A stretch of DNA of 64,000 nt from Lacisediminihabitans profunda (lineage in GTDB: Bacteria > Actinomycetota > Actinomycetes > Actinomycetales > Microbacteriaceae): assembly GCF_008040105.1 (NCBI RefSeq), contig NZ_VRMG01000002.1, positions 1 to 64,000 of the forward strand. Reading direction: 5' to 3'. Under the pieces are notes generated by a model. It was not told the origin of the DNA. It saw nothing but the letters and a program-made list of their open reading frames with translations, and made no database searches. Within the stretch, counting starts at the first letter, position 1, and each line of letters opens with the position of its first letter. Of this stretch, positions 39,428-59,918 are shown piece after piece. The position numbers and the translations under genes were made by a program.

Positions 39428-40504
39428 TCACACCCAGGTGGCCGCCCGGAACGGAAGCGGAACATAGTCGATGGTCTCGCCGAGGACGTGGGCCGCGCGC
39501 AGTGCGAAGTGGGGGTCGCGCGTGAGCTCGCGCCCAAGGAAGATCGCGTCTGCACGACCATCCACGAGGATCTGCTCCGCCTGTTCCGGCGTCGTGATCT
39601 TGCCCACGGCCGCGGCCTTCACCCCGCCGAGGCGACGCACGGTCTCGGTGAGTGGCACCTGGTAGCCCGGCGAAACGGAGATGAAGATGTCGCGGATGAG
39701 CCCACCGCTCGAGATGTCGAAGAAGTCGGCGCCGGCATCGGCCGCCCACGAGGCGACCTGCGCGGTTTCCTCTGGCGTCCAGCCTCCGTCCGCCCAGTCC
39801 GTGCCCGAGAAGCGCACGAACAGTGGGGTCGTCGGGGCAACCGACCGGATGCGAGCGACGATCTCGAGGAGCAGCCGGGCACGGTTCTCCAGCGAGCCGC
39901 CGTAGCCGTCCGTTCGTTCATTGCTCAGCGGAGACAGGAAAGAGTGCAACAGATAGCCGTGCGCCGCGTGGATCTCGATGACGTCGAAGCCCGCCTCGAG
40001 CGAGCGAACGGCCGCTTCACCAAAAGCATCGACCAGTGCCTTGATCTCGTCGAGGTCGAGTTCGTGCGGCACATCCATGCCTGGGCACGGAATCGCGGAA
40101 GCGGAGACCGGAACCCAGCCCCCCTCCGCCGCCGGCTTCGTTCTTCCCGCTTCTGCTGTGAAACCTCGGTAGTCAGAGGCCTTCCGACCCGCGTGGGCGA
40201 GCTGGATTCCGGCGAGCGCCCCCTGCGAATGCACGAACGAGGTGACGCGTGCCCAGCGATCGCGCTGCGCGTCATTCCAAAGTCCCGCACACTCCGACGT
40301 GATTCGCCCCTCAGGGGTGACGGCGGTCGCCTCGACCATGACGAGCCCCGCGCCACCCGCGGCATACGTTCCTGCATTGACGAGATGCCAATCGTGCGGC
40401 ATCCCATCGTGGTCGACGCACATGTACTGACACATTGGCGAGACCCAGATGCGGTTGCGAAACGACGTTCCGCGGATGGTGAGGGGCTCGAACAGCTTGC
40501 TCAC
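39428..40504 (-). CDS. Old yellow enzyme family ene-reductase (YqjM-like)
   Basis: The 358-residue flavoprotein is of the thermophilic-like OYE class. Features are SPMCQYMCVDHDG with the flavin-tuning Cys, AHAGRKAS, the substrate His pair in EIHAAHGYLLHSFLSPLSNER, and a GRELTRDPHFALRAA phosphate-binding end. Such enzymes reduce the C=C bond of alpha,beta-unsaturated ketones with NADPH. The GTG start overlaps the glutaredoxin stop by four bases. It is the last gene of a five-gene minus-strand operon with a monooxygenase, a hydrolase and an SDR, where it could saturate a cyclic enone before ring oxidation. Confidence 0.9.
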   Translation of the reverse strand: MSKLFEPLTIRGTSFRNRIWVSPMCQYMCVDHDGMPHDWHLVNAGTYAAGGAGLVMVEATAVTPEGRITSECAGLWNDAQRDRWARVTSFVHSQGALAGIQLAHAGRKASDYRGFTAEAGRTKPAAEGGWVPVSASAIPCPGMDVPHELDLDEIKALVDAFGEAAVRSLEAGFDVIEIHAAHGYLLHSFLSPLSNERTDGYGGSLENRARLLLEIVARIRSVAPTTPLFVRFSGTDWADGGWTPEETAQVASWAADAGADFFDISSGGLIRDIFISVSPGYQVPLTETVRRLGGVKAAAVGKITTPEQAEQILVDGRADAIFLGRELTRDPHFALRAAHVLGETIDYVPLPFRAATWV

Positions 40505-40743
40505 AGGAACCGCCGCGCGGTTTCGAGAAGCTCGGAGTTGGTCGGTTCGACGAGGAATGAGCCGTCGGTGAAGACGATCACCGGGGTCGAACGACGTCCA
40601 CTGATCTCCTCCGCCATGGCCGCTGCGTCAGCGTTCTCAGCGATGTCGATGTCGTCGAAGGGAATTCCGGCGTCCCTGAGTGCCGCGCGGGAGCGCGCAC
40701 AGTCGGCGCAGGTTGGGGTGCCGAAGAGTCTGATCGCGGTCAT
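40501..40743 (-). CDS. Glutaredoxin-like protein
   Basis: The 80-residue thioredoxin-fold protein has the redox motif CADC (residues 12-15), the cis-Pro loop STPVIVFTDG and a C-terminal helix. It resembles the NrdH/mycoredoxin branch of actinobacteria. It begins one base after the SDR stop and overlaps the ene-reductase start, so it belongs to the catabolic operon. Its role there (redox partner or thiol repair) is not evident. Confidence 0.82.
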   Translation of the reverse strand: MTAIRLFGTPTCADCARSRAALRDAGIPFDDIDIAENADAAAMAEEISGRRSTPVIVFTDGSFLVEPTNSELLETARRFL

Positions 40744-40744
40744 G

Positions 40745-41515
40745 TCAGCGCGCCATGAATCCGCCGTCGATGGGCAGGTTGACACCAGTGACCCACCTCG
40801 ACTCGTCGCTCGCAAGATACAGCACGCCGTAGGCGACATCGATCGGCAGGCCGAGCCGACGGATCGACTGATTGGCGGTGTTGACCTTTTCATATTCGAC
40901 GAGTCCGCCAGGGAACGCATTCGCCACACCCTCCACGAGCGGCGTGAGAACGGTGCTGGGGTGCACGGAGTTCACCCGGATGTTGAACCTGCCGTAGCTG
41001 GCCGCATCCTGCTTTGTCTGCATTGCGACAGCGCCCTTCGCCACGTGGTAGGCAGTGAACTCATCATTCCCGGTGAGGCCATAAATCGACGAGAAGTTCA
41101 CGATCGATCCCGAAGACTGCGCGATCATGTAGGGCAGCGCATGCTTGGTGGAGAAGAACACGCCTTTCACATCAATCGCGAAAAGTTCGTCCCATTCCGA
41201 CTCGCTCAGCTCGTGCGTCGGCTTGTCGACGCCGATGATGCCAGCACAGTTGATGAGCACATCGATCGTGCCGAACACCTCGCCGATCTCGCCATACACG
41301 GACGCGACATCCGTCTCGTCGGCGACGTTCAACGGCCAGAATCGGGCAGAACCTCCCGCGCTCGTGATCGCTGCGACGGTCTCGGCCCCGAGCGCCGCAT
41401 TCACGTCGGTCACCGCCACGGTCGCGCCTTCGGCTGCGAACAATTCGGCGGTCGCGCGCCCCATCCCGGACGCCGCGCCGGTGATCACCGCGATCTTGTT
41501 GTCGAGTCTGCCCAT
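40745..41515 (-). CDS. Short-chain dehydrogenase/reductase
   Basis: The 256-residue SDR has NAD-binding TGAASGMGRA, NCAG strand motif, catalytic Ser in NFSSIYG and Tyr/Lys in YHVAKGAV, and a C-terminal TGVNLPIDGGFMAR. Classical SDRs interconvert secondary alcohols and ketones. Placed directly after the Baeyer-Villiger gene (start overlapping its stop by one base), it is a good candidate for oxidising a cyclic alcohol to the ketone substrate. Confidence 0.9.
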   Translation of the reverse strand: MGRLDNKIAVITGAASGMGRATAELFAAEGATVAVTDVNAALGAETVAAITSAGGSARFWPLNVADETDVASVYGEIGEVFGTIDVLINCAGIIGVDKPTHELSESEWDELFAIDVKGVFFSTKHALPYMIAQSSGSIVNFSSIYGLTGNDEFTAYHVAKGAVAMQTKQDAASYGRFNIRVNSVHPSTVLTPLVEGVANAFPGGLVEYEKVNTANQSIRRLGLPIDVAYGVLYLASDESRWVTGVNLPIDGGFMAR

Positions 41516-43161
41516 CAGACGGTCGCCTTCTCCGTAGCGAGAAAGGTCGGGTACCCGGCCGCTTCGGCATCGCGGCAGAACTGCTGGTAGACCTGACCGC
41601 CACCCATATACACCTGGAATTCGCGCGGTTTGCCGGCGACGTTTTCGCCCAGAAACCATGCCTTCGCTTTGAGCCCTTCCGAGTACATGACAGTGGCTTT
41701 GCCGGCGCGGTCGACCTCGTCGGCCCACAACTCCTCCGACTCTGGAGTCGCCTCAAAGTGCTCGATGTCGTGGGCGGTAGCGAACTTGATCGCGCGAGCG
41801 ATCCACTGGGCGCCGAGTTGGATCGGTACCGGCAGGTTGGAGTACGGCGTCTGAGGGCCGAGGGACATGAAGAAGTTGGGGAAGCCGCTCACCGAAATCC
41901 CGAGGTTGGTTCGAATGCCCTTCGCCCACTTGTCGCGGAGGATGACGCCATCGCGTCCCACGATGTCGGGGGTGGTGAGCGTTCCCGTCATCGCATCGAA
42001 TCCTGTAGCAAAGATGATCACATCGAGTTCGAACTCAGTGTCACCGACAAGGATGCCCTTTTCGGTCAGGGTCGTGATGGGGTTTGACTTCACGTCGATG
42101 AGCGTCACGTTGTCCCGATTGAACGTCGCATAGTACCCATGACCGGTAGGAACACGTTTGCCATTGAACGAGTAGTCGGTGGGGCTCAGGAGGTCGGCGA
42201 CCGATTGGTCGATGACGATCTGATGGATCTTCTTACGGATGAAGGCTGATGCGAGCTCGCTCGATTCGTGGTTCGTGGCCAGGTCGTTGAAGCATTCGTT
42301 TGCGAAGTGAAACCCACCCTCCTGCCACTTACTCTCGAAGATGCGATCGCGCTCCTCGGCGTCGACGTCGAGAGCGCTCTTCTCTGCGAACACCATGTCG
42401 ACGCCGAACGGATGCGCTGCGGCTCTCGCAAAGATCTCGTCGTAGGTGTCGCGCACGTGCTTCATCTGCTCCGCACTCACCTTGTCGTTGTTGGTCTCGA
42501 CGATGAAGTTGGGCTGGCGCTGGAAAACCAGGAGTTCGGCGACCTGTGGGGCAATGGTCGGTACGACCTGAATGCCCGATGCGCCGAGTCCGACGATGCC
42601 CACGCGCTTGCCCGTCAGATCGACTCCCTCTCGTGGCCAGTTCGCAGTGTGATACTTCTGCCCGCCGAACGTCTCGATGCCGGGAATGTCGGGCCAAATC
42701 GCTTCGGAAAGGACGCCCATTCCACTGATGAGATAGGTCGCGGTAAGACTGCGACCGTCGGTGAGGTGCACCGTCCAGGTGTTGGATTCCTCGTCGTATT
42801 CGGCGCGGTCGACGCGGGAGTTGAATCGCATGTCCTTACGAAGGTCAAGGCGCTCCGCGACGAAGTTCAGGTAGGCGAGCACCTCCTTGCCCGACGGGTA
42901 CCGTTCGGTCCAGGTCCACTCGTCCCTAACCTCCTTCGAGAAGGAGAATGAGTAGTACTGAAATTCACTGTCAGTGCGCACGCCCGGGTAGTTGTTGCTC
43001 CACCAGGTACCACCAAGGTCGGAATCCGCGTCGAGAACCAGTGCCCGCTGGCCAATCTCGCGGAGGTGGTGGAGAAGCGCAATGCCGCTGAAGCCGGCAC
43101 CGATGATGATGCTGTCGAAGTCAGGCTTCGTCGTCGATGCGCCCGATGTTGTTGATGTCAT
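41515..43161 (-). CDS. Type I Baeyer-Villiger monooxygenase
   Basis: The 548-residue flavoprotein has two Rossmann motifs, GAGFSG (FAD, about residue 22) and GLGASG (NADPH), flanking the diagnostic BVMO fingerprint FGGQKYHTANWP that fits F-x-G-x-x-x-H-x-x-x-W-P. GTWWSNNYPGVRTDSE and FATGFDAMTG also match cyclohexanone-monooxygenase-like enzymes. It inserts oxygen next to a ketone carbonyl to give an ester or lactone. The ATG at 43161 follows AAAGGAAC. The hydrolase upstream would open the product. Ring size and substrate are inference. Confidence 0.93.
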   Translation of the reverse strand: MTSTTSGASTTKPDFDSIIIGAGFSGIALLHHLREIGQRALVLDADSDLGGTWWSNNYPGVRTDSEFQYYSFSFSKEVRDEWTWTERYPSGKEVLAYLNFVAERLDLRKDMRFNSRVDRAEYDEESNTWTVHLTDGRSLTATYLISGMGVLSEAIWPDIPGIETFGGQKYHTANWPREGVDLTGKRVGIVGLGASGIQVVPTIAPQVAELLVFQRQPNFIVETNNDKVSAEQMKHVRDTYDEIFARAAAHPFGVDMVFAEKSALDVDAEERDRIFESKWQEGGFHFANECFNDLATNHESSELASAFIRKKIHQIVIDQSVADLLSPTDYSFNGKRVPTGHGYYATFNRDNVTLIDVKSNPITTLTEKGILVGDTEFELDVIIFATGFDAMTGTLTTPDIVGRDGVILRDKWAKGIRTNLGISVSGFPNFFMSLGPQTPYSNLPVPIQLGAQWIARAIKFATAHDIEHFEATPESEELWADEVDRAGKATVMYSEGLKAKAWFLGENVAGKPREFQVYMGGGQVYQQFCRDAEAAGYPTFLATEKATV

Positions 43162-43220
43162 GAGAAGTTCCTTTCGGTGGTCAGTTCTTTGTCTGTTTTG
43201 CCAGGTGGCTGGTGGAAGAG

Positions 43221-44126
43221 TCAGCGGACGGCGTGGTACCACTCACCAATAAGTCGGATCTCCTCGTCCGCACGGGCGAGATTTCCGGCCTGAAACGGAT
43301 AGACGTGCTGCATGCCTTCGCCGATCGAGAACGTCACGTCGACACCTGCGTCTGAGGCCAATTGCCTTAGTCGAACTGCGTCGTCGAAGAGTGATTCCGT
43401 GTCGGCCGCGCAGATGTAGAGGCGGGGAAATCCGGCGAAGTCCGCATAGAGCGGGTTGACGTCCGGATTCGTGGGTTCCGTCACCCCTTCGATGTAGCGG
43501 TCGATGTTTCCCTGCAAGCCCTCGGGCGCGATGAGGAAGTCCGTGTCGTTGTTGCTTTCGAGGGTCGCGCCGTTGTTCTCCATGTTCAGCCACGGCGAGA
43601 GGGTGATCACGCGACCCGGAGTCGGGAGGCCCAGGCGCCGTGCGCGCATCGCCATGCTTATCGCCAGGTTGCCACCTGCGCTGTCACCGACTAGCGTGAC
43701 GTTCTCCGGAAGCACGCCTCGATCGAGAAGCGCCGAATAGACCGCCAGACCGTCTTCGATCTGGGCCGGATACTTGAATTCGGGGGCCCGCCGGAAGTCG
43801 ACGACGAACGCGACAGCCCCGCACGCCTTGGCGATATGCCCAGCGAGCTTGCGATGTGTCGCGGCAGAGCCGAGTGCGAACCCACCCCCATGCATGACGA
43901 TGAGCATCTGCGCGGGGTCGCTTCCCGTCGGAGTCACCAGGATCCCGGGGACTCCGCCGATTTCGGTGTTGGCGTACGTGACGTCTTCGGGCTCGGCCGT
44001 TGCGCGCTGCCAGTCCTCGAAGACGATACGAAGGAGTCCGATGGACATGTCTGGGTAGCGGGTCATCTCATTGATCCACTCGGCGTACATTTCGCCGAGA
44101 AGGTCGGTCGGCTTAGGGGTCGACAT
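43221..44126 (-). CDS. Alpha/beta hydrolase, hormone-sensitive-lipase family (lactone hydrolase candidate)
   Basis: The 301-residue enzyme has the HSL oxyanion motif HGGGFALGS, nucleophile GDSAGGNLA, acid in AADTESLFDDA and catalytic His in GMQHVYPF. HSL-family members include monoterpene epsilon-lactone hydrolases of Rhodococcus. First gene of the operon, 59 bp upstream of the Baeyer-Villiger gene, so hydrolysis of the lactone or ester product is the likely job. The ATG at 44126 is preceded by AAGGAG. Confidence 0.9.
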   Translation of the reverse strand: MSTPKPTDLLGEMYAEWINEMTRYPDMSIGLLRIVFEDWQRATAEPEDVTYANTEIGGVPGILVTPTGSDPAQMLIVMHGGGFALGSAATHRKLAGHIAKACGAVAFVVDFRRAPEFKYPAQIEDGLAVYSALLDRGVLPENVTLVGDSAGGNLAISMAMRARRLGLPTPGRVITLSPWLNMENNGATLESNNDTDFLIAPEGLQGNIDRYIEGVTEPTNPDVNPLYADFAGFPRLYICAADTESLFDDAVRLRQLASDAGVDVTFSIGEGMQHVYPFQAGNLARADEEIRLIGEWYHAVR

Positions 44127-44241
44127 GGTGCTCCTTGCGTGCGAGCGCTCGACGCGGCGATGCGTCGGCGCATAACGAAACGGGGGTGTGGCGTGTGCCA
44201 CGAATTCAGACTGCACGGCAGAAAACTGTGTTCAAAGCGCT

Positions 44242-44280
44242 GTCTCAAAATGAATCACTCGCGTCTCAACGTGACTCATT
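44242..44280. promoter_or_regulatory. Paired 18-bp operator-like repeats between divergent operons
   Basis: The words GTCTCAAAATGAATCACT (44242-44259) and GTCTCAACGTGACTCATT (44263-44280) share GTCTCAA-NN-TGA-N-TCA. They are offset by 21 bp, two helical turns. They lie in the 436-bp gene-free region (44127-44562) between the oxidation operon and the ABC importer operon. This is the expected position for the AcoR-type activator encoded in the island. Nothing else in this gap is recognisable as a gene. Confidence 0.55.
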
Positions 44281-44562
44281 CCGACGGTCTGAGCGCTGCA
44301 ATATTTGGTTTTGCGAGGCAGAACAGCCTCAGCCCGATTCCGTGACTGGGGACAACCAGCCTGGGGTCGGCAGAGCTCCAAGTAGTAGCGAAGCGCACAT
44401 CCGTAGTTCGTCAGAGCAGATGAAACACAGTCAGAGAAGACACTCATCGCGCTGGCGACTCCGAGCCCCAATCACAAGTTGAGATGCCGTGCTTTATGCC
44501 GAACCACACGCTGTCGGGTTCCGACCAGTGATTCGGTGTTCCTTTCAATCACGAGAGAAAGT

Positions 44563-45723
44563 GTGCAAATTTTGAAGAAGAACTTCGTTGCAGTGCTGGC
44601 CGTTGCCGGCGTGCTCGCGCTGAGCGCGTGTTCGTCTGGTGCGCCGGGTGCCGCGGGCGGCACATCGTCCCCAGGTGGCGCGAAAGGCCAGCAGGTTGGC
44701 GTTGCAGGCACGCAGAGTCAGATTCAGGACATCTCCAAGTTCTGCGGCACAAAGCCGATCAAAGTCGCCTATGCAGACGGTTTTGGTGGCAACTCCTGGC
44801 GCAAGACCACTCGCGCCGTATTCGAGGCGGAGGCGGCCAAGTGCAAGAACATCACCTCAGTCGTCTACACCGATGCCCAGGCGGATACTCAGAAGGCGAT
44901 TTCCGACATCAACTCCCTGACCGCCCAGGGCGTCAACGTGATCGTCTCGTTCACCGACGGCGGCCCTGCCCTTCTTCCGACGATCAAGAAGGCCACCGCG
45001 GCCGGCGTCAAGTTCGTGCCGATCGTCGCATCTCCTGGCGGTAAGCCGGGCGTCGACTACGTGGACTTCGTTTCTGAAAACGTTGACACCTACGGCAAAG
45101 GTCTCGCCGACTGGACCATCAAGCAGATGCACGGGAAGGGGAATCTGCTGATGACCGGCGGTCAGGCGGGCAACCCCTACTCTCAGGCGGTGTACGAGGG
45201 AGTCAAGAAGGCGGTTGCGGCCAACCCAGGAATCACACTGCTGAACACAAAGATCGGTGACATTCCGGTGGACACCGGGTGGGAGCCCGGCAAGACCAAG
45301 CAGGTGGTTGCCGGTCTCATCACCAAGTTCGGCACCATCGACGGAGTCGTAGCCGACTACGGCGGAGGGTCGGTCGGTGGAATCCAGGCCTTCATTGATG
45401 CGGGCAAGCCAGTCCCGCCGTGGTCTGCGAACGACTCCAACCAGTTCGCGTGCCTGTGGTACCAGTACAAGAGCACACAACCGAACTACCAGATTGCCAC
45501 TGAGTCGTCCCGCAACTGGGTCGCGATTGCCGCATTGCACAAGGGACTGGCGGCATACAACGGGATCCTCAACTCGGAGCCTTCGACCTTCAACCTGGGA
45601 ATCATCGAGGACTCGACGAACCCATCGCAGCAGCCGGTGTGTGAGAAGTCTCTGCCGAATGACGCAATTCTGTCATCCGGACTGACCGTCGCGCAGCAGA
45701 CGAAACTGTTCTCCACTAAATAG
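44563..45723 (+). CDS. CUT2-type ABC transporter substrate-binding lipoprotein
   Basis: The roughly 386-residue product has a signal peptide with lipobox LSAC and a Gly/Ser-rich linker. A periplasmic-binding-protein-like domain (RbsB class) follows, with [34 protein letters not shown] and a hinge region. Four cysteines beyond the lipid anchor could form two disulfides, which is unusual for ribose-type binders. GTG at 44563 or TTG at 44572 can serve as start; GTG has a GAGAAAG site. It opens the importer operon of the island; the ligand is unknown and need not be a sugar. Confidence 0.85.
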
Positions 45724-45730
45724 CACACCC

Positions 45731-45760: not shown

Positions 45761-45825
45761 CCCACTTCGATGACGAAGCAACCAGTCGGTTGATCGTCTT
45801 GGCAACCCAATTCCGGAGGTACACA

Positions 45826-46545
45826 TTGAATCGACTGGATGGCAAAGTCGCCATCGTCACCGGCGCCGGTCGCGGCATTGGTCGCGCGATTGCCGAAGCT
45901 TTTGCTCGAGAAGGCGCCACGGTGATCGCCACGAGCCAATCCGATCACGCGGACTTCTCGGGAAACATCGAGTTTCACAAGCAGGACGTGGCCGAGGAGG
46001 CCGGTTGGAAAGACCTCGTCTCGGCCGTACTCGAACGTCACGGTCGGATCGATGTGCTGGTCAACAATGCCGGCATCATCGCGTATGACCCCCTTCACGA
46101 GCTCAGTGTTGCGGATTGGGACCGTGTCGTCGCTGTCAATCAGACCGGCGTCTGGCTGGGGATGCGCGAGGTGCTACCCGGGATGCTTGCCGCCGGCGTC
46201 GGCTCGATCATCAATGTTTCATCCATCTGGGGCAACGCCGCTGTGAGCGGTGCCCACGCGTATCACGCCACCAAAGGCGCGGTTCGCAACATGTCGAAGA
46301 ACGCCGCCATCACCTACGCCACCACTGGTGTCCGGGTGAACTCGCTCCACCCAGGCTTCATCGAGACTCCCTTGACGGACGCCCAGGCCCCGGAAGTCAA
46401 CGACTACGTCGTCAGTATGACTCCCATGGGTCGAGCCGGGCGGCCCGAAGAGATCGCCTGGGGGGCTGTCTTCCTCGCAAGCGATGAGTCCAGCTTCATG
46501 ACCGGGGCCGAGCTGGTCATCGACGGCGGATACCTCGCCCAGTAG
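45826..46545 (+). CDS. Short-chain dehydrogenase/reductase within the importer operon
   Basis: The 239-residue SDR has [20 protein letters not shown], catalytic Ser in NVSSIWG and Tyr/Lys in YHATKGAV, and a C-terminal [16 protein letters not shown]. The TTG at 45826 is chosen because GGAGG lies six bases upstream and the protein then starts like other SDRs. It sits between the binding protein and the fused ATPase-permease, suggesting it acts on the imported compound. Confidence 0.88.
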
Positions 46546-46557
46546 GGACGGAGAAAA

Positions 46558-51886: not shown

Positions 51887-51995
51887 GCAGCAACTCCTTT
51901 GTCGCTTTTGGCACGGGTACGTCAACGCCGGTCGCGATCCGCTGGTGCAGAACGTCTTCAGGTGCCGATGAGTGTTTTGCCGATCAGTGTAGGGC

Positions 51996-52065
51996 GTTTC
52001 AGACACGTCATGGCTACTCGGTCAGCCGGGCCTCCACGGCAACCGCTGCGTAATACCATAATACG
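51996..52065. promoter_or_regulatory. Divergent promoter region between activator and aldehyde dehydrogenase
   Basis: The 253-bp gap 51887-52139 contains GTTTCAGACAC (51996-52006), whose complement GTGTCTGAAAC loosely resembles the half-site of the repeats at 44242-44280. It also holds TAATACCATAATACG (52051-52065), with an AATAC direct repeat of 8-bp period. These are candidate regulator or promoter sites only. No gene is seen. Confidence 0.3.
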
Positions 52066-52139: not shown

Positions 52140-53642
52140 ATGGCCAGCTCTACCCTCACTACCCCGACCTCCGACTTGGTGGTCGAGATTCACGGCCACA
52201 TCGTCCCGACCGCGCTTCTGATCGGCGGCGAGTGGCGCTCGACGGAGCGCACCTTCGCCGTGGCGAACCCAGCCACCGGCCAGACGATCGCCGACATGTC
52301 AGACGGTTCACCGGTCGAGGCCCGCGAGGCCCTCGACGCAGCCACCGCCGCAGCGGAGAGTTGGCGTGCCTGGCCTCCGCGGGCTCGAGCGGACCTCTTC
52401 CACCGCGCGCATCGTTTGCTGGTCGAGCGAGCCGATGCCTTCGCGGATGTCATGGTCAGCGAGAGCGGAAAGCCTCGAGCCGAGGCGGTGGGCGAGTTCG
52501 AGTTGTCGGCCGGTTTCTTCCTTTGGTACAGCGAGCAGATCGCACACCTGCATGGCACCTACCAGGAAGGTTCCCGTGGCGGGTATCGAGTCATCGAAAC
52601 CCACCAGCCCGTTGGCCCCAGCCTGCTGATCACGCCGTGGAACTTTCCGATGCTGATGTCGGCGCGCAAAGCGGGTGCGGCCCTCGCAGCCGGCTGCACG
52701 GTAATCATGAAGTCTGCGCGTGAGACTCCACTCACTGCCGCTCTGTTCGCCGACACCCTGAACGAGGCGGGCTTCCCGGCGGGCGTCATCAACCTCATCC
52801 ACACCAGCACCTCAGCCGATGTCTCTGCGGGCTTGATGGCCGACGATCGGCTGCGCAAGGTGAGCTTCACGGGATCGACCGGCGTGGGCCGGACACTGCT
52901 CGCCCAAGCGTCCGCGAACATCATGAATGCCTCGATGGAACTGGGCGGTGACGGCCCCTTCATCGTCCTGGATGATGCTGATCTCGAACTCGCGGTGGAT
53001 CAGGCGATCATCTGCAAATTCCGAAATGCCGGCCAGGCCTGTGTCGCAGCGAACAGGATAATCCTGCACTCGGCGATCGCCGACCGGTTTGTGGAGGCGT
53101 TCGTCGAGAAGACTCGACAGCTCGCAGTCGGTCACGGCTTCGACCCCGCCGTCACAGTGGGGCCCCTGATTTCCGAACGACAGCGGCACAGGGTGGTGGG
53201 GCTTGTGGATGCGTTCCAGGCGTCTGGTGCCGAGTTGCTCGCCGGAGGTCATGCCATCGATGGGCAGGGTTTCTTCTACGAGCCAACGGTGCTCAGGTTC
53301 AGCGGCCTGAAGCACGAATTCGCCAACGAGGAGCTGTTTGCGCCGGTCGCTGCCCTGTATACGGTCGACACCGTGTCCGAGGCGATCGAATTCGCGAATG
53401 ACACGCACTACGGCCTGTCGGCGTACTTGTTCACCAAGGACCTCTCGCGAGCCGTTGCGATCGCGGAGAAGCTCGATTTCGGGATGGTGGGGATCAATCG
53501 CGGCATCATGGCGGATCCGGCCGCACCATTCGGCGGTATCAAGGCGTCAGGGCTCGGCCGCGAAGGCGGTCACGACGGGATCTACGAGTTCCTTGAGCGC
53601 AAGTACCTTGCGCTCACGATCGACGAGACGGTGGTTCTCTGA
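52140..53642 (+). CDS. NAD(P)-dependent aldehyde dehydrogenase
   Basis: The 500-residue ALDH has the nucleotide motif SFTGSTGVGRTLL, general base Glu in MELGGDGPF and catalytic Cys in FRNAGQACVAANR, and resembles the succinate-semialdehyde dehydrogenase group. ATG at 52140 with AAGGAA. Its stop overlaps the alcohol dehydrogenase start by one base. In a ketone pathway it would oxidise the oxo-acid formed from the opened lactone to a diacid. Confidence 0.93.
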   Translation: MASSTLTTPTSDLVVEIHGHIVPTALLIGGEWRSTERTFAVANPATGQTIADMSDGSPVEAREALDAATAAAESWRAWPPRARADLFHRAHRLLVERADAFADVMVSESGKPRAEAVGEFELSAGFFLWYSEQIAHLHGTYQEGSRGGYRVIETHQPVGPSLLITPWNFPMLMSARKAGAALAAGCTVIMKSARETPLTAALFADTLNEAGFPAGVINLIHTSTSADVSAGLMADDRLRKVSFTGSTGVGRTLLAQASANIMNASMELGGDGPFIVLDDADLELAVDQAIICKFRNAGQACVAANRIILHSAIADRFVEAFVEKTRQLAVGHGFDPAVTVGPLISERQRHRVVGLVDAFQASGAELLAGGHAIDGQGFFYEPTVLRFSGLKHEFANEELFAPVAALYTVDTVSEAIEFANDTHYGLSAYLFTKDLSRAVAIAEKLDFGMVGINRGIMADPAAPFGGIKASGLGREGGHDGIYEFLERKYLALTIDETVVL

Positions 53643-54889
53643 TGGCAAGCATTGAGAACGATCTGGGGCTCGGCCTGCTCCGCCAGCCGAAGACGGTGCT
53701 GTTCGGAGCGGGCCAGCGTCGGCAGCTTCCCTACCTCGTCAAGCCACTCGGCTCGCACGTCCTTATCTGCACGGATTCGCGAATGGCGACGACTGCGGAA
53801 TACGCCGAAATCGCCGCGTCACTGACTGAGAACGGGATTGCGGTGTCCGTCTACTCAGACGTCGAACCGGACCTTCCCCGCAGCAACGTCGTCGACATTC
53901 AACGGCGATTCGGATCCGAGCAGGTCGATGTGGTCATCGGCCTGGGCGGAGGAAGCTGCCTTGACATGGCAAAGGTCGCGGGGCTGATGTTGTCGCTCGG
54001 CGGTGACATCCGTGACTACTTCGGCGAGAACCTGGTGCCGCGGCCCGGTCTGCCCGTGATCACCATCCCGACGACGGGCGGAACGGGCGCTGAGGTGACC
54101 TGCATCGCCGTTGTCTTCGACGACGAGAAGCACATGAAGGTGGGAGTGGCGAGCGCGTACCTCGAGGCGGTCGCGGCGATCATCGACCCCGAACTCACCC
54201 TCAGTTGCCCGCCTGGGCTGACCGCAGCGACCGGAGCGGATGCGCTCTCGCATCTCATCGAGTCATTCACCGATCGCGCGAAGAACCCGAGCGCGGACGA
54301 CATCGACCAGCATCTCTACGTGGGCAAGAACGTGCTCACCGACGTGTACTGCCGCACTGGCATCGAGCTCCTTGGGCGATCGCTGGAGGCGGTGGTTGCT
54401 GACCCGTCCGACCTGCAGGCGCGCGCCGACACGATGTTCGCCGCCTACTGTGCAGGCATGGCCATCAACACCGCGGGCACGGCAGCGGCCCATGCCATCC
54501 AGTCGCCAATCGGTAATCTGACCCACTCGCCGCACGGCATCGGAGTCGGCGCTCTGCTGCCCTATGTGATGCGGTTCAACCTTCCTGCGCGCGTGGCGGT
54601 GTTCGCGGAGATCGGGCGCTTGCTCGGGGTCGCCGATGCCGCACAGCCCGAGCTCGACCAGGCACACGCCGCCATCGAAAGGGTGGAGCAGATTCTTTCG
54701 ATCCTGGGTGTCCCCGGCGACCTCAAGGAGCTCGGCCTCGAGCCGAAGGACTTCGAGTTCGTGGCCCAACAGGCAATGCTTGCGACCCGGCTCACCTCGA
54801 ACAACCCCCGGGTGCTCACGGAGAACTCGATCGTGGCGCTGCTGGAGCGCGGATACGCCAACGACCGCTCCTGGTGGGTGATCGAGTGA
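53642..54889 (+). CDS. Iron-containing alcohol dehydrogenase
   Basis: The 415-residue group III alcohol dehydrogenase has NAD-binding GLGGGSCLDMAK, IPTTGGTGAEVT, metal-ligand segments DALSHLIESF and HAIQSPIGNLTHSPHGIGVG. It oxidises primary alcohols or hydroxyacids, here plausibly the omega-hydroxy acid from lactone hydrolysis. It is coupled to genes on both sides by start/stop overlaps. Confidence 0.92.
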   Translation: MASIENDLGLGLLRQPKTVLFGAGQRRQLPYLVKPLGSHVLICTDSRMATTAEYAEIAASLTENGIAVSVYSDVEPDLPRSNVVDIQRRFGSEQVDVVIGLGGGSCLDMAKVAGLMLSLGGDIRDYFGENLVPRPGLPVITIPTTGGTGAEVTCIAVVFDDEKHMKVGVASAYLEAVAAIIDPELTLSCPPGLTAATGADALSHLIESFTDRAKNPSADDIDQHLYVGKNVLTDVYCRTGIELLGRSLEAVVADPSDLQARADTMFAAYCAGMAINTAGTAAAHAIQSPIGNLTHSPHGIGVGALLPYVMRFNLPARVAVFAEIGRLLGVADAAQPELDQAHAAIERVEQILSILGVPGDLKELGLEPKDFEFVAQQAMLATRLTSNNPRVLTENSIVALLERGYANDRSWWVIE

Positions 54890-55833
54890 CGAGGACCGTG
54901 GCGATCGCGGGCGCCGGGTCAATCGGCGTCGCGTTTGCACTCCTGTTCGCGAGGGCGGGCTTCAACGTCCGTATGTGGGACGCGCTCCCCGGAGCCTTCG
55001 ATCGCGCGACGCCGGACCTCCTCGATCGTCTGGACCTGCTTGACCGGTTCGACGCCCTCCACGAGCCGACTCACACCATCGCGGCTCGGGTCAGCTATCA
55101 CGACATCCTGCTCGACGCGCTAGACGGCGCCGAACTGGTTCAGGAGTGCGCTCCGGAGTCGCTCGAGATCAAGCGCGAACTCTTTCAGCAGCTTGGCGCC
55201 TACAGCGACTCGAAGACCGTACTCGCGAGTTCATCGTCGGCGATCGTGGCCAGCCAGTTTGCGACGGCAACCCCAGCCCGGGATCGTGTACTCATTGCGC
55301 ATCCGGGGAACCCGCCATACCTCATCCCCGTGATCGAACTGGTCCCGTCGCCCTTCACGAGTTCAGAGATCGTTGATAGAGCGGAACAGATCTACGTCGA
55401 GGCCGGGCTGAGGCCCGTTCGAGTGCGCAAGGAGATCGAGGGCTTCGTATTCAACCGACTGCAGGGCGCTCTGCTTCGTGAGGCCTACGCCCTGGTGAGG
55501 GATGGTGTCGCGAGCGTGGCCGACATCGACCTCGTAGTCACTCAGGGGCTCGGTCGACGCTGGAGTGTGATCGGCCCCTTCGAGACGATCGATCTCAACA
55601 CTCGAGGTGGTGTCGAGTCGCACGCCGCGAAGATGGGGCCTGCGTATGCGCGGATGGGCGCCGAACGTGGTCAGGATGACCCGTGGACGGACGAACTGGT
55701 CACTGAAGTTGCCAGACAGCGCCGGGAGCAGCTCCCGCTCGACCACTGGGACGAACGCGTGCGCTGGCGCGACGAGCAACTCCTTCGTCGACAAGTGCTC
55801 GACCACGATCCGTCGCCGACTAAGAATGCGTGA
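54886..55833 (+). CDS. 3-hydroxyacyl-CoA dehydrogenase family protein (lambda-crystallin/gulonate-dehydrogenase-like)
   Basis: The 315-residue enzyme has an N-terminal Rossmann motif AGAGSIGVAFALLFARAG, the SSSSAIVASQ loop, catalytic His in IAHPGNPPYLIPVIELVP, and the conserved GFVFNRLQGALLREAY start of the C-terminal domain. The HPxNPP signature is typical of the lambda-crystallin branch, which includes L-gulonate 3-dehydrogenase and 3-hydroxybutyryl-CoA dehydrogenases. It could perform the beta-oxidation dehydrogenation in this island. GTG start, overlapping the upstream stop. Its 3' end overlaps the convergent GntR gene by 14 bp. Confidence 0.88.
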   Translation: MTRTVAIAGAGSIGVAFALLFARAGFNVRMWDALPGAFDRATPDLLDRLDLLDRFDALHEPTHTIAARVSYHDILLDALDGAELVQECAPESLEIKRELFQQLGAYSDSKTVLASSSSAIVASQFATATPARDRVLIAHPGNPPYLIPVIELVPSPFTSSEIVDRAEQIYVEAGLRPVRVRKEIEGFVFNRLQGALLREAYALVRDGVASVADIDLVVTQGLGRRWSVIGPFETIDLNTRGGVESHAAKMGPAYARMGAERGQDDPWTDELVTEVARQRREQLPLDHWDERVRWRDEQLLRRQVLDHDPSPTKNA

Positions 55834-56512
55834 GATCCGGAACCCGGCGCCTGTACTCCACGATCGCCAGCTCGCCGGCGAGACGAATGTGTTCCTCGCA
55901 GGCCGCGCGGGCGCGGGCCGCATCGCGCTGACGGGCGGCCGCATCGACGATTCGTCTCAACTCCAGCATCGAGGTCGAGACTCGGTCCTCGTCGAGAAAC
56001 GCGTAGTGACGGAATATTCCGATCCGAGTGTGTACCCGGCTCAGGTCCTCGGCGAGGATCTCGTTGCGCCCGCCCGCGAGCAGGATCCGATAGAAGGTGT
56101 CCTTCGAGGATCCACGGCTTCGGAGGTCGCCGTGAAGGTACGTCGATTCCATCTTGTCGAGGAGGTTGATGAGCGCGACGGCATCCGCCTCGCTCGCATT
56201 GCGCGCGAAAAGTTCGCCGGCCAGCCCTTCGAGGCTCCCGCGGACCTCGTACAGCGAGGTGATGTCGTGAACCGAGAGCACCGATACGATGGGCCCCCGG
56301 TTCGGCAGCACCGTGATCAATCTCTCGGATTCGAGTTGTCGAAGGGCTTCGCGCACAACGGTTCGTGAGACTCCGTAACGCTCACACAGCGCGCTCTCCA
56401 AGAGTCGGTCTCCGGGATGCATCACGTCATCGAGGATCTCCTGGCGTAGCGCTCGGACGACCAGATTACGCAGAGGGGCGGCCACGGGAGTGACTCGTCT
56501 CGATGCGTCCAT
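55820..56512 (-). CDS. GntR family regulator, FadR/FCD type
   Basis: The 230-residue protein has a winged helix (about 15-80, with LCERYGVSRTVVREALRQLESERL) and a helical FCD domain whose metal ligands normally include Asp/His residues such as those around FYRILLAGGRNEIL and HTRIGIFRHYAF. The ATG at 56512 has GGAAGG upstream. It is divergent from the CoA-transferase operon, with a matching operator in the shared gap. Confidence 0.9.
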   Translation of the reverse strand: MDASRRVTPVAAPLRNLVVRALRQEILDDVMHPGDRLLESALCERYGVSRTVVREALRQLESERLITVLPNRGPIVSVLSVHDITSLYEVRGSLEGLAGELFARNASEADAVALINLLDKMESTYLHGDLRSRGSSKDTFYRILLAGGRNEILAEDLSRVHTRIGIFRHYAFLDEDRVSTSMLELRRIVDAAARQRDAARARAACEEHIRLAGELAIVEYRRRVPDLTHS

Positions 56513-56603
56513 AGGGGAACCTTCCGCCAACCGTGAACGATTCTAGCCTCGCGCCTTCGTGTCGTGGTTCAGGGGGCTTTCCCTTTGGAACCAAACCCGG
56601 TAG

Positions 56604-56638
56604 TGTTCGTTGTATGAACATTAGTTCGTCAGACGAAC
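56604..56638. promoter_or_regulatory. Two operators before the CoA-transferase operon
   Basis: TGTTCGTTGTATGAACA (56604-56620) is a 5-7-5 palindrome. GTTCGTCAGACGAAC (56624-56638) is a perfect 15-bp palindrome. The latter contains TCGTCAGACGA, which fits the FadR-type consensus TNGTNNNACNA. They lie 14-48 bp before the start codon at 56652. The FCD regulator divergent from them, or the IclR regulator at the operon end, are the likely binders. Confidence 0.7.
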
Positions 56639-56651
56639 GAAAGAGGGAAGT

Positions 56652-57350
56652 GTGATTTCCAAAGTTGTACGGTCAATCTCGGAAGCCCTTTCCGACATCG
56701 GCGACGGGTCGAAGATCATGATCGGTGGCTTCGGTCTTGCAGGGCAGCCCGGCGAGCTGATCGACGGGCTCATTGAGCAGGGGGCATCTCACCTCACCGT
56801 GATCAACAACAACGCGGGAAACGGGACGACCGGACTTGCTGCTCTGCTTCGCAACGGCCAGGTTGACAAAATCGTGTGTTCGTTCCCGAGGCAGGCGGAT
56901 TCACAGGTGTTCGATGAGTTGTATCGGGCCGGAAAGATCGAACTCGAACTCGTTCCCCAGGGCAATCTTGCGGAGCGTATCCGGGCCGGCGGCGCCGGGA
57001 TCGGCGCGTTTTACACCCCCACCGGGTTCGGAACGAAACTCGCCGAGGGCAAGGAGACCCGCACCATCAACGGGCGTGAATACGTGCTGGAGTATCCGAT
57101 GGTTGCCGATTTCGCTCTCATCAGTGCCTTCAAGGCCGACCGGCTGGGAAATCTCCTCTATCGCAAGACGGCCCGCAATTTTGGCCCCATCATGGCGAGT
57201 GCCGCGACGACGACAATCGTCCAGGTCGACGATGTCGTTGCACTCGGTGCCCTCGACCCGGAGTCGGTCGTGACCCCCGGAATCTTCGTTGACCGCGTGG
57301 TCGCGGTCGGCAGCAGGTTCGACCGAGAGGAGTGGGCAGGTGTTCGCTGA
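56652..57350 (+). CDS. 3-oxoacid/3-oxoadipate CoA-transferase subunit A
   Basis: The 232-residue alpha subunit has the family-I signature MIGGFGLAGQPGELID, NNNAGNGTTGLAALL, and PQGNLAERIRAGGAGIGAFYTPTG. With subunit B it transfers CoA from succinyl-CoA or acetyl-CoA to a carboxylate. GTG start after AGAGGGAAG. It resembles PcaI/ScoA proteins; specificity cannot be read from sequence. Confidence 0.94.
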   Translation: MISKVVRSISEALSDIGDGSKIMIGGFGLAGQPGELIDGLIEQGASHLTVINNNAGNGTTGLAALLRNGQVDKIVCSFPRQADSQVFDELYRAGKIELELVPQGNLAERIRAGGAGIGAFYTPTGFGTKLAEGKETRTINGREYVLEYPMVADFALISAFKADRLGNLLYRKTARNFGPIMASAATTTIVQVDDVVALGALDPESVVTPGIFVDRVVAVGSRFDREEWAGVR

Positions 57351-57993
57351 ACGACTGACGAGAAACGAGGTCGCTGCGCGGGTCGCGCAAGACATCCCCG
57401 ATGGCGCCTATGTGAACCTGGGCATCGGTCTCCCGACGCTCGTATCGAATTTCCTTCCCGCGGACAGGGAGGTCATTCTGCACACCGAGAACGGAATGCT
57501 AGGCATGGGCCCCGAGGCGCGGCCCGACCAGCTTGACCCCGACTTGATCAACGCGGGCAAGATCCCGGTGACCGCCACCCTCGGCGCGAGCTACTTCCAC
57601 CACGGCGACTCGTTCGCAATGATGCGTGGCGGGCACCTTGACGTTTGCGTGTTGGGAGCTCTGCAGGTCTCGCAATTCGGCGATCTCGCGAACTGGAGCA
57701 CGGGAGAGCCGGGAGCAATCCCGGCGGTGGGCGGTGCCATGGATCTCGCTATCGGTGCCAAGAACGTGTACGTGATGATGGATCTCAGCACCAAGCAGGG
57801 CCAGTCGAAACTCGTGGATGAGTGCAGCTATCCGCTCACTGGGATGCGTTGCGTGAGCCGGATCTACACCGATGTTGCCGTCTTCGGCCTGAGCGCCGCG
57901 GGAGCCACGGTTACACAACTTTTCGGCGATGCGACGGTCGACGCTTTGCGCGACCTCACTGGCCTCGCCCTCATCGATGGGACTTCGGCATGA
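57340..57993 (+). CDS. 3-oxoacid/3-oxoadipate CoA-transferase subunit B
   Basis: The 217-residue beta subunit has GAYVNLGIGLPTLVSNF and the active-site glutamate in LHTENGMLGMG, plus the GGAMDLAIGAKNVYVMM strand. The GTG at 57340 has GAGAGGAG upstream and lies inside the end of subunit A (11-bp overlap). Its stop overlaps the thiolase ATG, so the three are translated together. Confidence 0.94.
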   Translation: MFAERLTRNEVAARVAQDIPDGAYVNLGIGLPTLVSNFLPADREVILHTENGMLGMGPEARPDQLDPDLINAGKIPVTATLGASYFHHGDSFAMMRGGHLDVCVLGALQVSQFGDLANWSTGEPGAIPAVGGAMDLAIGAKNVYVMMDLSTKQGQSKLVDECSYPLTGMRCVSRIYTDVAVFGLSAAGATVTQLFGDATVDALRDLTGLALIDGTSA

Positions 57994-59159
57994 CTGCATC
58001 ATTCATTTTCGACGGGGTGCGCACTCCGATCGGCCGGTTCGGCAAGGCCCTGGCCGGGGTGCGACCCGACGACCTTGCCGCACATGTGATTCGGGAGTTG
58101 GTAGCCCGTCATCCGTCGCTGGACCCAGCGACGATCGACGACGTCATTCTTGGCGATGCGAACGCAGCCGGGGAAGACAATCGTGACGTGGCCCGGATGG
58201 CCCTCATCTTGGCTGGGCTTCCGACATCCGTACCGGGTGCAACGGTCAACCGGCTGTGCGGATCAGGGCTCGAGGGGATCATCCAGGCCAGTCGCGCCGT
58301 CGAGGTCGGCGACGCCAGGTTGGTGATCGCGGGCGGGGTCGAATCGATGTCTCGCGCGCCGTGGGTCATGCTCAAGCCAGACCGCCCATACCCGGCAGGG
58401 AGCGAGACTATGCACTCCACGACGATCGGCTGGCGGATGACGAACCCGAAGATGCCCACTGATTGGAGCATCCCGCTGGGGGAGACGGCAGAGATCCTCG
58501 CGGACCGTTATGACATCTCGCGAGAAGCGCAGGACGAGTTTGCTGTTCGCAGCCACCGAAACGCGGCGAAGGCATGGGACGCCGGCCGCTTCGATCAGGA
58601 GGTCGTCGCGGTGCCCGGCACCACCCTCTTGCGTGATGAGGGCATCCGCGCCGACTCATCCATGGGATCCCTCGCCGGGCTGACGCCCGCGTTTCGGCAG
58701 AATGGCACGGTAACCGCGGGGAACTCGTCACCTCTCAACGACGGGGCCGCAGCCCTGTTCATCGGCGGAGACAACGCTCTGCCCGGCGAGCCACTCGCGC
58801 GAATCGTCTCGCGCGGCGTCGCCGGAAACGACCCGAACATCTTCGGCATCGCGCCGGTCGAGGCGGCCAATATCGCTCTGAAGCGCGCCGGCAAGACCTG
58901 GGACGACGTGGACCTGGTCGAATTGAACGAAGCCTTCGCAGCGCAGAGCCTCGCGTGCCTGAAACTCTGGCCCGAACTCGACCCGGAGAAGGTGAACATT
59001 GACGGCGGTGCAATCGCGATTGGGCATCCCCTCGGCGCCTCCGGCGCCCGCATCTTGCTCCACCTCGCACGCGCACTCGAACTCCGCGGAGGCAGAGTCG
59101 GTGTCGCCGCGATCTGTATCGGCGTGGGCCAGGGCCTCGCGGTCGTGCTCGAACGCTAG
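57990..59159 (+). CDS. Acetyl-CoA acyltransferase (thiolase, PcaF-like)
   Basis: The 389-residue degradative thiolase has the nucleophilic Cys in VNRLCGSGLEGI, catalytic His in AIGHPLGASGARI, and second Cys in ICIGVGQG, all in the usual order. The NRLCGSG form with CoA-transferase neighbours resembles 3-oxoadipyl-CoA thiolase. It would cleave the 3-oxoacyl-CoA made by the pathway to acetyl-CoA and a shortened (or succinyl-) CoA. Confidence 0.94.
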   Translation: MTASFIFDGVRTPIGRFGKALAGVRPDDLAAHVIRELVARHPSLDPATIDDVILGDANAAGEDNRDVARMALILAGLPTSVPGATVNRLCGSGLEGIIQASRAVEVGDARLVIAGGVESMSRAPWVMLKPDRPYPAGSETMHSTTIGWRMTNPKMPTDWSIPLGETAEILADRYDISREAQDEFAVRSHRNAAKAWDAGRFDQEVVAVPGTTLLRDEGIRADSSMGSLAGLTPAFRQNGTVTAGNSSPLNDGAAALFIGGDNALPGEPLARIVSRGVAGNDPNIFGIAPVEAANIALKRAGKTWDDVDLVELNEAFAAQSLACLKLWPELDPEKVNIDGGAIAIGHPLGASGARILLHLARALELRGGRVGVAAICIGVGQGLAVVLER

Positions 59160-59168
59160 CGTTACAGG

Positions 59169-59918
59169 GTGCCAACACCAGAACCGAGTGACCTGTACGT
59201 CCAATCGCTCGTGCGCGGGCTGTCGGTCATTCGCGCGTTCGACGCGGACCATGCCAGCATGACGCTGAGTGAGATCGCGGCACAGACTGACCTGACGCGA
59301 GCCACCGTGCGCCGATTCCTGCACACGCTCATTGAGATCGGCTACGTCCGCACCGACGGACGCGCTTTCGAGTTGACTCCGCGCGTACTCGAACTCGGGT
59401 TCGGATACTTGTCTGCGTTGAGCCTTCCGGAGATCGCGCAGCCGCACCTTGATGCCTTCTCGCGCGAAACAGGCGAGTCGAGCTCGATGTCGGTGCTCGA
59501 CGGAAACGACATCGTCTACGTCGCCAGGGCGGCGGTCCGTCGAATCATGAGCGTATCCATCTCAGTCGGGACGCGCTTCACGGCTTACACGACATCGATG
59601 GGGCGCGTCCTCCTGGCCGCGACCGACGTCGCCCTACCGGAGACGCTCGAGCGCCCGACACCCCGCGCGATTTCACGTGCCACCGATCTACGCGCTGAAC
59701 TCGCCCGGGTGCGCGCGCAGGGCTACTCACTGGTCGATCAAGAACTCGAGATCGGCTTGATCTCCCTTGCGGTTCCCGTGAAGAACGAGGCGGGCGCGAC
59801 GATTGCGGCCATCAACGTGTCGGTCGCTGCAGGCGCCCACTCGCTCGAAGAACTCACCAGCGATCTGCTGTCTCGGCTGCGGGCAACGGCCTCCGAAATC
59901 GAGCGCGCATCTCGATAG
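59169..59918 (+). CDS. IclR family regulator (PcaR/PobR-like)
   Basis: The 249-residue protein has an N-terminal winged helix (about 10-70, LSEIAAQTDLTRATVRRFLHTL) and a C-terminal effector domain with SVSISVGTRFTAYTTSMGRVLLA and YSLVDQELEIGLISLAVPVKN. IclR regulators beside CoA-transferase and thiolase genes typically sense the corresponding ring-fission acid (PcaR in the beta-ketoadipate pathway). GTG start 10 bp after the thiolase stop, so it is probably co-transcribed with its target genes. Confidence 0.92.
   Translation: MPTPEPSDLYVQSLVRGLSVIRAFDADHASMTLSEIAAQTDLTRATVRRFLHTLIEIGYVRTDGRAFELTPRVLELGFGYLSALSLPEIAQPHLDAFSRETGESSSMSVLDGNDIVYVARAAVRRIMSVSISVGTRFTAYTTSMGRVLLAATDVALPETLERPTPRAISRATDLRAELARVRAQGYSLVDQELEIGLISLAVPVKNEAGATIAAINVSVAAGAHSLEELTSDLLSRLRATASEIERASR

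Follow-up and report, generated by a model that had tools for sequence, protein, structure and literature searches.

Which compound is taken up and broken down through the accessory island at positions 39428–59918 of the window, the stretch of 64,000 nucleotides analysed here from Lacisediminihabitans profunda (contig NZ_VRMG01000002.1 of assembly GCF_008040105.1, positions 1 to 64,000)? A first-pass annotation of this DNA read the block of about 18 genes as a route from a cyclic ketone or alcohol to CoA thioesters, to be completed by beta-oxidation enzymes encoded elsewhere. Our analysis suggests that the island probably serves to import, and to degrade completely, an alicyclic compound whose six-membered ring carries two oxygens, with the degradation ending in a module of the beta-ketoadipate (Pca) type. 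That the route channels a cyclohexane with two oxygens (a diol resembling a deoxy-cyclitol) into the beta-ketoadipate pathway by way of a new 3-hydroxyadipate dehydrogenase is a more specific proposal, for and against which the case is evenly poised. Gene content, conservation, PcaI/J/F orthology and the occurrence of the set in the related genome G030 are observed, and from these we infer the activities, the ring size and the substrate.

All genes named in the annotation are present on the strands it gave, and family searches (NCBIfam, Pfam) agree with its names. The minus strand encodes, in the order of transcription, an HSL-family esterase, a Baeyer-Villiger monooxygenase (BVMO), a short-chain dehydrogenase/reductase (SDR 1), a glutaredoxin-like protein and an ene-reductase. 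The plus strand carries the genes for a substrate-binding protein, SDR 2, a fused ATPase-permease and a second permease, then those for an aldehyde dehydrogenase (ALDH), an iron-type alcohol dehydrogenase (Fe-ADH) and a 3-hydroxyacyl-CoA-dehydrogenase-like enzyme, which are followed by PcaI, PcaJ, a PcaF-type thiolase and an IclR regulator. Three regulators are encoded, the PcaR-type IclR protein on the plus strand and a DhaR/AcoR-like and a GntR protein on the minus strand, the latter two located between the plus-strand genes. In the catabolic enzymes every catalytic motif looked for was found by motif search. The gathering of SDR, BVMO, lactone hydrolase, alcohol dehydrogenase and ALDH genes in one cluster, to which the annotation had drawn attention as the gene set of chn-type pathways, is thereby borne out.

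The end of the plus strand encodes a PcaI-type 3-oxoacid CoA-transferase subunit A (56652–57350; TIGR02429, 371.6 bits, cut-off 128.5), a PcaJ-type subunit B (57340–57993; TIGR02428, 277.4 bits, cut-off 243.55; TENG motif with the catalytic Glu), a 3-oxoadipyl-CoA thiolase-like protein of the PcaF clade with its catalytic motifs (57990–59159) and an IclR regulator of the PcaR/PcaU/PobR subfamily (59169–59918; TIGR02431, 291.7 bits, cut-off 284.75). The models for PcaI, PcaJ and PcaR types are all passed above cut-off; those for PcaI and PcaJ cover 3-oxoacid CoA-transferases generally and do not fix the substrate. The annotation had overlooked that the CoA-transferase, thiolase and IclR genes are specifically beta-ketoadipate types. 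The thiolase scores best at 3-oxoadipyl-CoA thiolase models. In a tree of 32 rows, the island copy forms one clade of 11 rows (100/100) with those of eight other cluster genomes, Pimelobacter and Nocardioides, and in its sister clade (94/91) the member from G206 has PaaA and a PaaK-like gene as neighbours. G206 (L207) and G156:C172 each contain a relative of the island thiolase at 54%. In Nocardioides sp. LHD-245 (L199), orthologs of PcaF/I/J (58–67% identity) lie beside a catechol 1,2-dioxygenase scoring above cut-off, together with muconate-cycloisomerase-like and PcaD-like genes, both below cut-off, and the same catechol 1,2-dioxygenase is found near the PcaF-ortholog locus of Pimelobacter. 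The Pca-type models, the thiolase clade and the catechol 1,2-dioxygenase contexts thus point to 3-oxoadipate as the probable intermediate.

The genome of L. profunda also contains a separate pca-like locus on contig C65, composed of PcaI/J/F and two adjacent PF00775 (intradiol dioxygenase) genes; C117 and C150 hold two further PcaJ-family genes. Because the island proteins are only 44% (PcaF), 51% (PcaJ) and 41% (PcaI) identical to those of C65, the island set is, by this comparison, an extra and diverged copy. The same divergence (41–51%), along with a ring size that the sequence does not fix, leaves some room for another ring or position, for example 3-hydroxycyclopentanone leading to 3-oxoglutarate, or a substituted ring leading to a substituted 3-oxodiacid. 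Such a substrate is unlikely, since in two genomes orthologs of the module are neighbours of catechol 1,2-dioxygenase, a context that makes 3-oxoadipate the substrate there.

The enzyme placed just ahead of this module (54874–55833, plus strand) suggests how 3-oxoadipate may arise. Among solved structures it is closest to lambda-crystallins (199 bits for 3ado and 188 bits; 3ado and 3f3s are the entries named), followed by a pyridoxal-catabolism enzyme (123 bits) and by 3-hydroxybutyryl-CoA dehydrogenases (at most 94 bits). It has the stretch HPxNPPYxIPxxELVP in common with lambda-crystallin, and family models add carnitine dehydrogenase as another relative. By these similarities, it is a member of the lambda-crystallin/carnitine-dehydrogenase group and not a classical HAD. 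L-gulonate 3-dehydrogenase and carnitine dehydrogenase both use free 3-hydroxyacids. The kinship therefore suits a free 3-hydroxydiacid, which would be oxidised ahead of CoA transfer, and we propose the enzyme as a candidate 3-hydroxyadipate dehydrogenase. Excerpts of one study identify lambda-crystallin as L-gulonate 3-dehydrogenase (PMC12435205), and excerpts of another describe the production of 3-hydroxyadipate via engineered reverse beta-oxidation (PMC8336102). The island enzyme thus resembles the L-gulonate and carnitine 3-dehydrogenases in its best solved relatives and the shared stretch, whereas its proposed substrate is 3-hydroxyadipate.

Two dehydrogenases encoded upstream of it would supply this acid. 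The ALDH (52140–53642, plus strand) possesses the catalytic Cys and Glu motifs, has a succinate-semialdehyde dehydrogenase model as its nearest model, with a score below cut-off, and is proposed to convert the omega-semialdehyde to the carboxylate. The Fe-ADH (53642–54889, plus strand), proposed to oxidise the omega-hydroxyacid, resembles the ErcA, lactaldehyde-reductase and methanol-dehydrogenase types and keeps the DxxxH (DALSH) and H...H (HAIQSPIGNLTHSPH) motifs. Read backwards from PcaIJ and PcaF through the 3-oxo-forming dehydrogenase and the carboxylate made by Fe-ADH and ALDH, the set leads to 3- or 4-hydroxycyclohexanone, and since adipate is symmetric both ketones would converge on 3-hydroxyadipate.

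The proposed route would start with import of a polar, polyol-like substrate by the CUT2-type ABC system, after which an SDR would oxidise one ring alcohol to the ketone; the ene-reductase, where present, would saturate an enone. The BVMO would then convert the ketone into a hydroxy-epsilon-caprolactone, and the HSL esterase would open the lactone to 3,6- or 4,6-dihydroxyhexanoate. Oxidation of the terminal CH2OH to COOH by Fe-ADH and ALDH would give 3-hydroxyadipate, which the lambda-crystallin-type dehydrogenase would oxidise as the free acid to 3-oxoadipate. PcaI/J would form 3-oxoadipyl-CoA, and the PcaF-type thiolase would split it into succinyl-CoA and acetyl-CoA. In this way the hydroxyl already on the ring would stand in for acyl-CoA dehydrogenase and enoyl-CoA hydratase, with neither beta-oxidation nor aromatisation. 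Candidate substrates are cyclohexane-1,3- or -1,4-diol, 3- or 4-hydroxycyclohexanone and the matching hydroxycyclohexenone, in which the second ring oxygen is at C3 or C4. The cyclic ketone of the annotation is retained in this proposal, but it should carry that second oxygen.

Type I BVMOs are defined by the fingerprints FxGxxxHTxxW[P/D] and [A/G]GxWxxxx[F/Y]P[G/M]xxxD together with two Rossmann motifs. The island protein (41515–43161, minus strand) contains both fingerprints (FGGQKYHTANWP and GGTWWSNNYPGVRTD) and the Rossmann motifs GAGFSG and GLGASG, and is similar over its full length to solved BVMOs (PAMO, steroid monooxygenase and CHMO chains, E 1e-114 to 1e-140). By these marks it is a type I BVMO, in agreement with the assignment made earlier from a fingerprint. 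Its active-site loop, GPQTPYSNL.VPIQLGAQW, is without the two-residue bulge of PAMO (441–442), as in the 11 cluster orthologs aligned (G206 was not aligned). The motif PYSNL.VPIQLGAQW is common to the island BVMO and these 11 orthologs and occurs in none of seven distant BVMOs aligned. Excerpts of one paper report that deletion of the bulge residues in PAMO admits bulkier substrates, and that ACMO has one more residue than PAMO at this site (PMC6215540).

The loop bears on an acyclic route, in which the BVMO would make an acetate ester from a methyl ketone, following the logic of acetone and butanone monooxygenases, and the esterase would free acetate and an alcohol. Fe-ADH and ALDH would then yield a 3-hydroxyacid and, through the 3-oxoacid, the substrate of CoA-transferase and thiolase. 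The HSL family includes many short-ester esterases, and acetoacetate-type CoA-transferases are found among the relatives of PcaI. This route has a slim prospect, as the BVMO is without the loop insertion that the excerpts describe for ACMO and PAMO (PMC6215540), and the thiolase, whose clade is linked to loci of the cat and paa types, is ill-suited to acetoacetate. For the alicyclic route we prefer, the esterase (43221–44126, minus strand) is the proposed lactone hydrolase; it contains HGGG and GDSAG motifs, and its best model is that of the GESAG group, with a score below cut-off.

The importer is composed of a CUT2/ribose-type substrate-binding protein (Peripla_BP_4; 44563–45723) with a lipobox-like motif, a fused double ATPase-permease (46558–49095) with Walker A and signature motifs, and a second permease (49092–50102) identified by family match, all on the plus strand. 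SDR 2 (45826–46545), also a family match, runs in the same direction; the start codons of the binding protein and SDR 2 were picked by eye. The nearest solved binding proteins belong to the sugar/polyol class, and a polar ring polyol fits as substrate because the importer is of this type. Known substrates of the CUT2-type importer class include cyclitols, for example inositol. An attempt to name the ligand was set aside, since the nearest binding proteins and a Foldseek list obtained on a weak model say only "CUT2 type". SDR 1 (40745–41515, minus strand) has the TGxxxGxG and YxxxK motifs. Next to it lie the genes for a glutaredoxin/mycoredoxin-like protein (40501–40743, minus strand; PF00462, CxxC) and an NamA/YqjM-like ene-reductase of the OYE type (39428–40504, minus strand; NF010047, score below its cut-off).

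The distribution of these genes indicates whether they work together. A search with the BVMO in 299 Microbacteriaceae genomes gave matches in 30 at E ≤ 1e-60, own included, and ten of the 30 (own and nine others) reach at least 67% identity. Among 80 BVMO loci from a collection of named genomes, three reach 69–71% (Pimelobacter simplex 3E, Nocardioides sp. LHD-245 and Mycobacterium sp. ACS1612), and the other 77 have BVMOs of 29–45% identity; 53 of the 77 loci are longer than 21 kb, the shorter ones being a weaker test. A class-wide search of 394 genomes from 138 genera found no BVMO at E ≤ 1e-170 besides the own one, and the 21 genomes listed all belong to the own family. Labels for neighbouring genes in other genomes rest on their similarity to the window genes, and some of the remaining genes were given family searches.

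Twelve other genomes share the cluster core in syntenic order, apart from some losses and interruptions by contig ends. The esterase lies beside the BVMO in 13 of 13 genomes. SDR 1 orthologs (69–80%) do so in 10 of the 12 others, the exceptions being G206, in which a contig end cuts the locus, and Mycobacterium, which has no SDR 1. The binding protein is present in 11 of the 12, with no importer seen in the Mycobacterium cluster, and SDR 2 orthologs (69–79%) are likewise present in 11, the contig of G012 ending first. ALDH, Fe-ADH and the 3-hydroxyacid dehydrogenase travel together, and the last of these is found in all 13 cluster genomes, with at least 59% identity in all 12 others. Ene-reductase orthologs (73–75%) lie beside the clusters of G012, G251, G094, G206 and G030. 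Only fragmentary matches (43 and 58%) lie beside that of G093, and none was seen near those of G205, G288, Pimelobacter, Nocardioides and Mycobacterium. Both the ene-reductase and the glutaredoxin are optional members, and so is the enone reduction step of the annotation.

At the 77 distant-BVMO loci, no partner reaches 50% identity, and the dehydrogenase and the binding protein never attain 30% identity with 70% coverage (L056 is just under 30%). Weak neighbours (at least 30%) are found there for the SDRs (19 and 12 loci), ALDH (15) and HSL (13), and PcaI/J in a single locus, that of Oceanobacillus. A chance assembly of catabolic genes was rejected because of the conserved co-occurrence, in synteny, in 13 genomes, own included, which was not found at the 77 distant loci (53 of them longer than 21 kb); judged by gene neighbourhood, the cluster is a conserved pathway and a real unit. 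The annotation had joined import, ring oxidation, lactone formation and opening, diacid formation and CoA activation in one mobile unit, and as a gene set this is upheld by the co-occurrence, but its beta-oxidation end is not. In the Mycobacterium genome, the cluster (L041 65–2356) adjoins the genes for an NDMA-dependent alcohol dehydrogenase (above cut-off) and for two small proteins that match no family. In G094, a second, distant BVMO (29%) and an ALDH (45%) are located some 11 kb from the BVMO cluster (L125 16146–19228).

Family genome G030 speaks to the end of the pathway. It is a single contig of 1.76 Mb, 99% complete, and of the whole set it lacks only the GntR gene; Grx, OYE and PcaR-F-J-I are all present. 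One PcaJ-family gene and one thiolase match at E ≤ 1e-70 were found in it, as well as two ECH-family genes, one of them MenB. PF00775 has no match in G030, so its PcaI/J/F serves no intradiol ring cleavage. The sole PF00441 match (55 bits) fits PF08028 better, and no canonical acyl-CoA dehydrogenase was found; a beta-oxidation route in this genome would therefore want that enzyme. In the ten family genomes searched, neither PF00441 nor PF00378 matches inside a cluster, and PF00775 has no match inside a cluster in nine.

These results bear on a chn-like route, by which an unsubstituted cyclic ketone would be converted to a saturated diacid, and CoA-transferase, an acyl-CoA dehydrogenase and hydratase from elsewhere in the genome, and the island dehydrogenase and thiolase would finish the breakdown. 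The enzyme classes are those of chn pathways, and strong matches to PF00441 (171.9 bits) and PF00378 (273.6 bits) lie outside the island in the own genome. We regard this route as quite unlikely, given the 3-oxoadipate-type terminal genes, the lambda-crystallin type of the dehydrogenase, the absence of PF00441 and PF00378 matches from the clusters and the lack of a canonical PF00441 protein in G030. The saturated-diacid end proposed by the annotation is probably wrong on the same grounds, to which the PcaR type and the cat-locus orthologs add. It had rightly noted no acyl-CoA dehydrogenase or enoyl-CoA hydratase here, as no match falls within the clusters, but the Pca-type end genes and G030 argue against the view that they are needed from elsewhere.

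An aryl ketone of the HapE type would employ the same families, with BVMO, esterase, ring cleavage, ALDH and a maleylacetate reductase of the Fe-ADH family leading to 3-oxoadipate and PcaIJF. It is very improbable. No ring-cleavage dioxygenase is recognised among the 18 window genes, and PF00775 is absent from the clusters of nine family genomes and from all of G030 (cupin-type HapCD was not searched genome-wide). Moreover, the Fe-ADH is of the ErcA/lactaldehyde-reductase/methanol-dehydrogenase type with DxxxH and H...H kept, and the 3-hydroxyacid dehydrogenase would be left without a job.

Several observations weigh against a Pca-ended route from a dioxygenated ring. Only four genomes (the own one, G288, G093 and G030) have PcaI/J/F within the cluster itself; these genes are about 12 kb off in G094, far off in G205 and on other draft contigs in G012, G156 and G206. 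In Pimelobacter and Nocardioides they are in the cat-type locus, not the BVMO cluster, and no close PcaF ortholog was found in Mycobacterium or in G251 (83% complete; best 46%). The thiolase is under the cut-offs of PcaF (TIGR02430, 454 vs 597 bits) and PRK09050 (464 vs 605 bits), and its best solved relative, 7vtr, is named only "Thiolase". The Nocardioides thiolase beside catechol 1,2-dioxygenase also fails both cut-offs (428 and 434 bits), which indicates that they exclude a clade of beta-ketoadipate context. The dehydrogenase passes the cut-off of PRK06129, named "3-hydroxyacyl-CoA dehydrogenase", so its substrate may be a CoA ester. The bulge is also missing in two of the seven distant BVMOs (L049 and L053), so this trait is not unique. 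HSL-family enzymes are often short-ester esterases, and the ester opened may be an acetate ester instead of a lactone. The AlphaFold model of the binding protein is weak (mean pLDDT 62.8). PF00441 matches above 100 bits occur in 9 of the 10 family genomes searched, leaving G030 alone as a clean test, and PF00775 genes in 8 of the 9 non-own family genomes. Finally, of the ECH-family and acyl-CoA dehydrogenase genes seen outside the clusters, the nearest are some 10 kb past PcaI (ECH family, G288) and some 18 kb past it (acyl-CoA dehydrogenase, G094).

The accessory nature of the island, as first annotated, holds. Its G+C content (39401–59950) is 62.8%, versus 69.9% on the left and 67.8% on the right, and five other genomes of the genus gave no BVMO match at E ≤ 1e-60. 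The right border of the slot is a tRNA-Lys (ttt) gene (60216–60290, minus strand) with its 3' end towards the island. This tRNA was found in all seven same-genus regions that contain the right flank, four of which have the left-flank gene (36993–38174) in reach. The gap between the two measures about 0.28 kb (L225, G139), 4.7 kb (L227), 5.6 kb (L224) and 7.7 kb (L223), and the four slots carry different cargo, without any operon of the island. Because gap sizes and cargo differ, the slot between the 36993–38174 gene and tRNA-Lys is variable, and it is empty in one relative. Variation of this kind next to the 3' end of a tRNA gene, with the site left empty in a related genome, is what marks a tRNA-associated genomic island. 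An integrase-driven element was rejected: there is no integrase gene among the 18 island genes, no copy of the tRNA end was found, and the sole direct repeat between the borders (exact words of at least 11) is 13 bp long and off the tRNA. Plasmid origin was set aside, as the plasmid collection (132 records) gave only BVMOs below 60% identity.

Most core genes are nearest to genus g13 (SDR 1 78–80%, ALDH 75–79%, Fe-ADH 76–77%, dehydrogenase 72–74%), whereas PcaI and PcaF are nearest to g12 (76–77% and 68–74%, versus 68–69% and 65–68% in g13). BVMO identity does not discriminate (68–73% for g13 versus 70–72% for g12). The island may be a mosaic.

The DhaR/AcoR-like AAA+/Fis protein (50147–52006, minus strand) is identified by family matches and has Walker A, and the exact GAFTGA loop was not found by motif search; it is perhaps not a usual sigma-54 activator. 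The best models of the GntR-type protein (55820–56530, minus strand) score below cut-off. At the left border, an msrA gene (38677–39243, above cut-off) sits between the left-flank gene and the ene-reductase gene, and it has no match in seven same-genus stretches. Between the left-flank gene and msrA, the region 38351–38645 contains seven copies, on both strands, of a CCGTCCTGCACAAC-like 14-mer (at most one mismatch; 0.04 expected by shuffling), with longer direct and inverted repeats.

The chn-type cyclohexanol/cyclohexanone pathway is known from Acinetobacter, Rhodococcus and others. The island resembles it in having SDR, type I BVMO, esterase-type lactone hydrolase and alcohol and aldehyde dehydrogenases in one cluster, but adds a sugar-type ABC importer, employs an Fe-ADH and ends in a 3-hydroxyacid dehydrogenase and PcaI/J/F, probably in place of beta-oxidation. 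With the terminal branch of the beta-ketoadipate pathway, which is known mainly for aromatic rings, it has PcaI/J, PcaF and PcaR in common, as seen from the TIGR matches above cut-off and the orthologs beside catechol 1,2-dioxygenase. Unlike that pathway, the island contains no recognised ring-cleavage enzyme, and 3-oxoadipate would come from an alicyclic ring via 3-hydroxyadipate. The hap (4-hydroxyacetophenone) pathway is similar in its BVMO, esterase, ALDH, Fe-ADH-family enzyme and 3-oxoadipate endpoint, whereas the island is without a recognised dioxygenase and has an extra lambda-crystallin-type dehydrogenase, an importer and two SDRs. A BVMO route via 3-hydroxyadipate or 4-hydroxycyclohexanone was not found among titles and abstract openings of the open-licence literature. 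BVMO-based ketone catabolism and beta-ketoadipate terminal genes are each known; joining both without aromatisation looks new.

If the proposal is true, it would join two textbook funnels, the beta-ketoadipate pathway and the BVMO-based breakdown of alicyclic ketones. The acyl-CoA dehydrogenase and hydratase that had seemed missing would not be missing at all. The BVMO subgroup, marked by an active-site loop of its own, would acquire a role, as would the candidate 3-hydroxyadipate dehydrogenase. The route would occur even in a bacterium with a genome as compact as the 1.76 Mb of G030, and a conserved, unnamed cluster common to the Microbacteriaceae, Pimelobacter, Nocardioides and Mycobacterium would gain a function.

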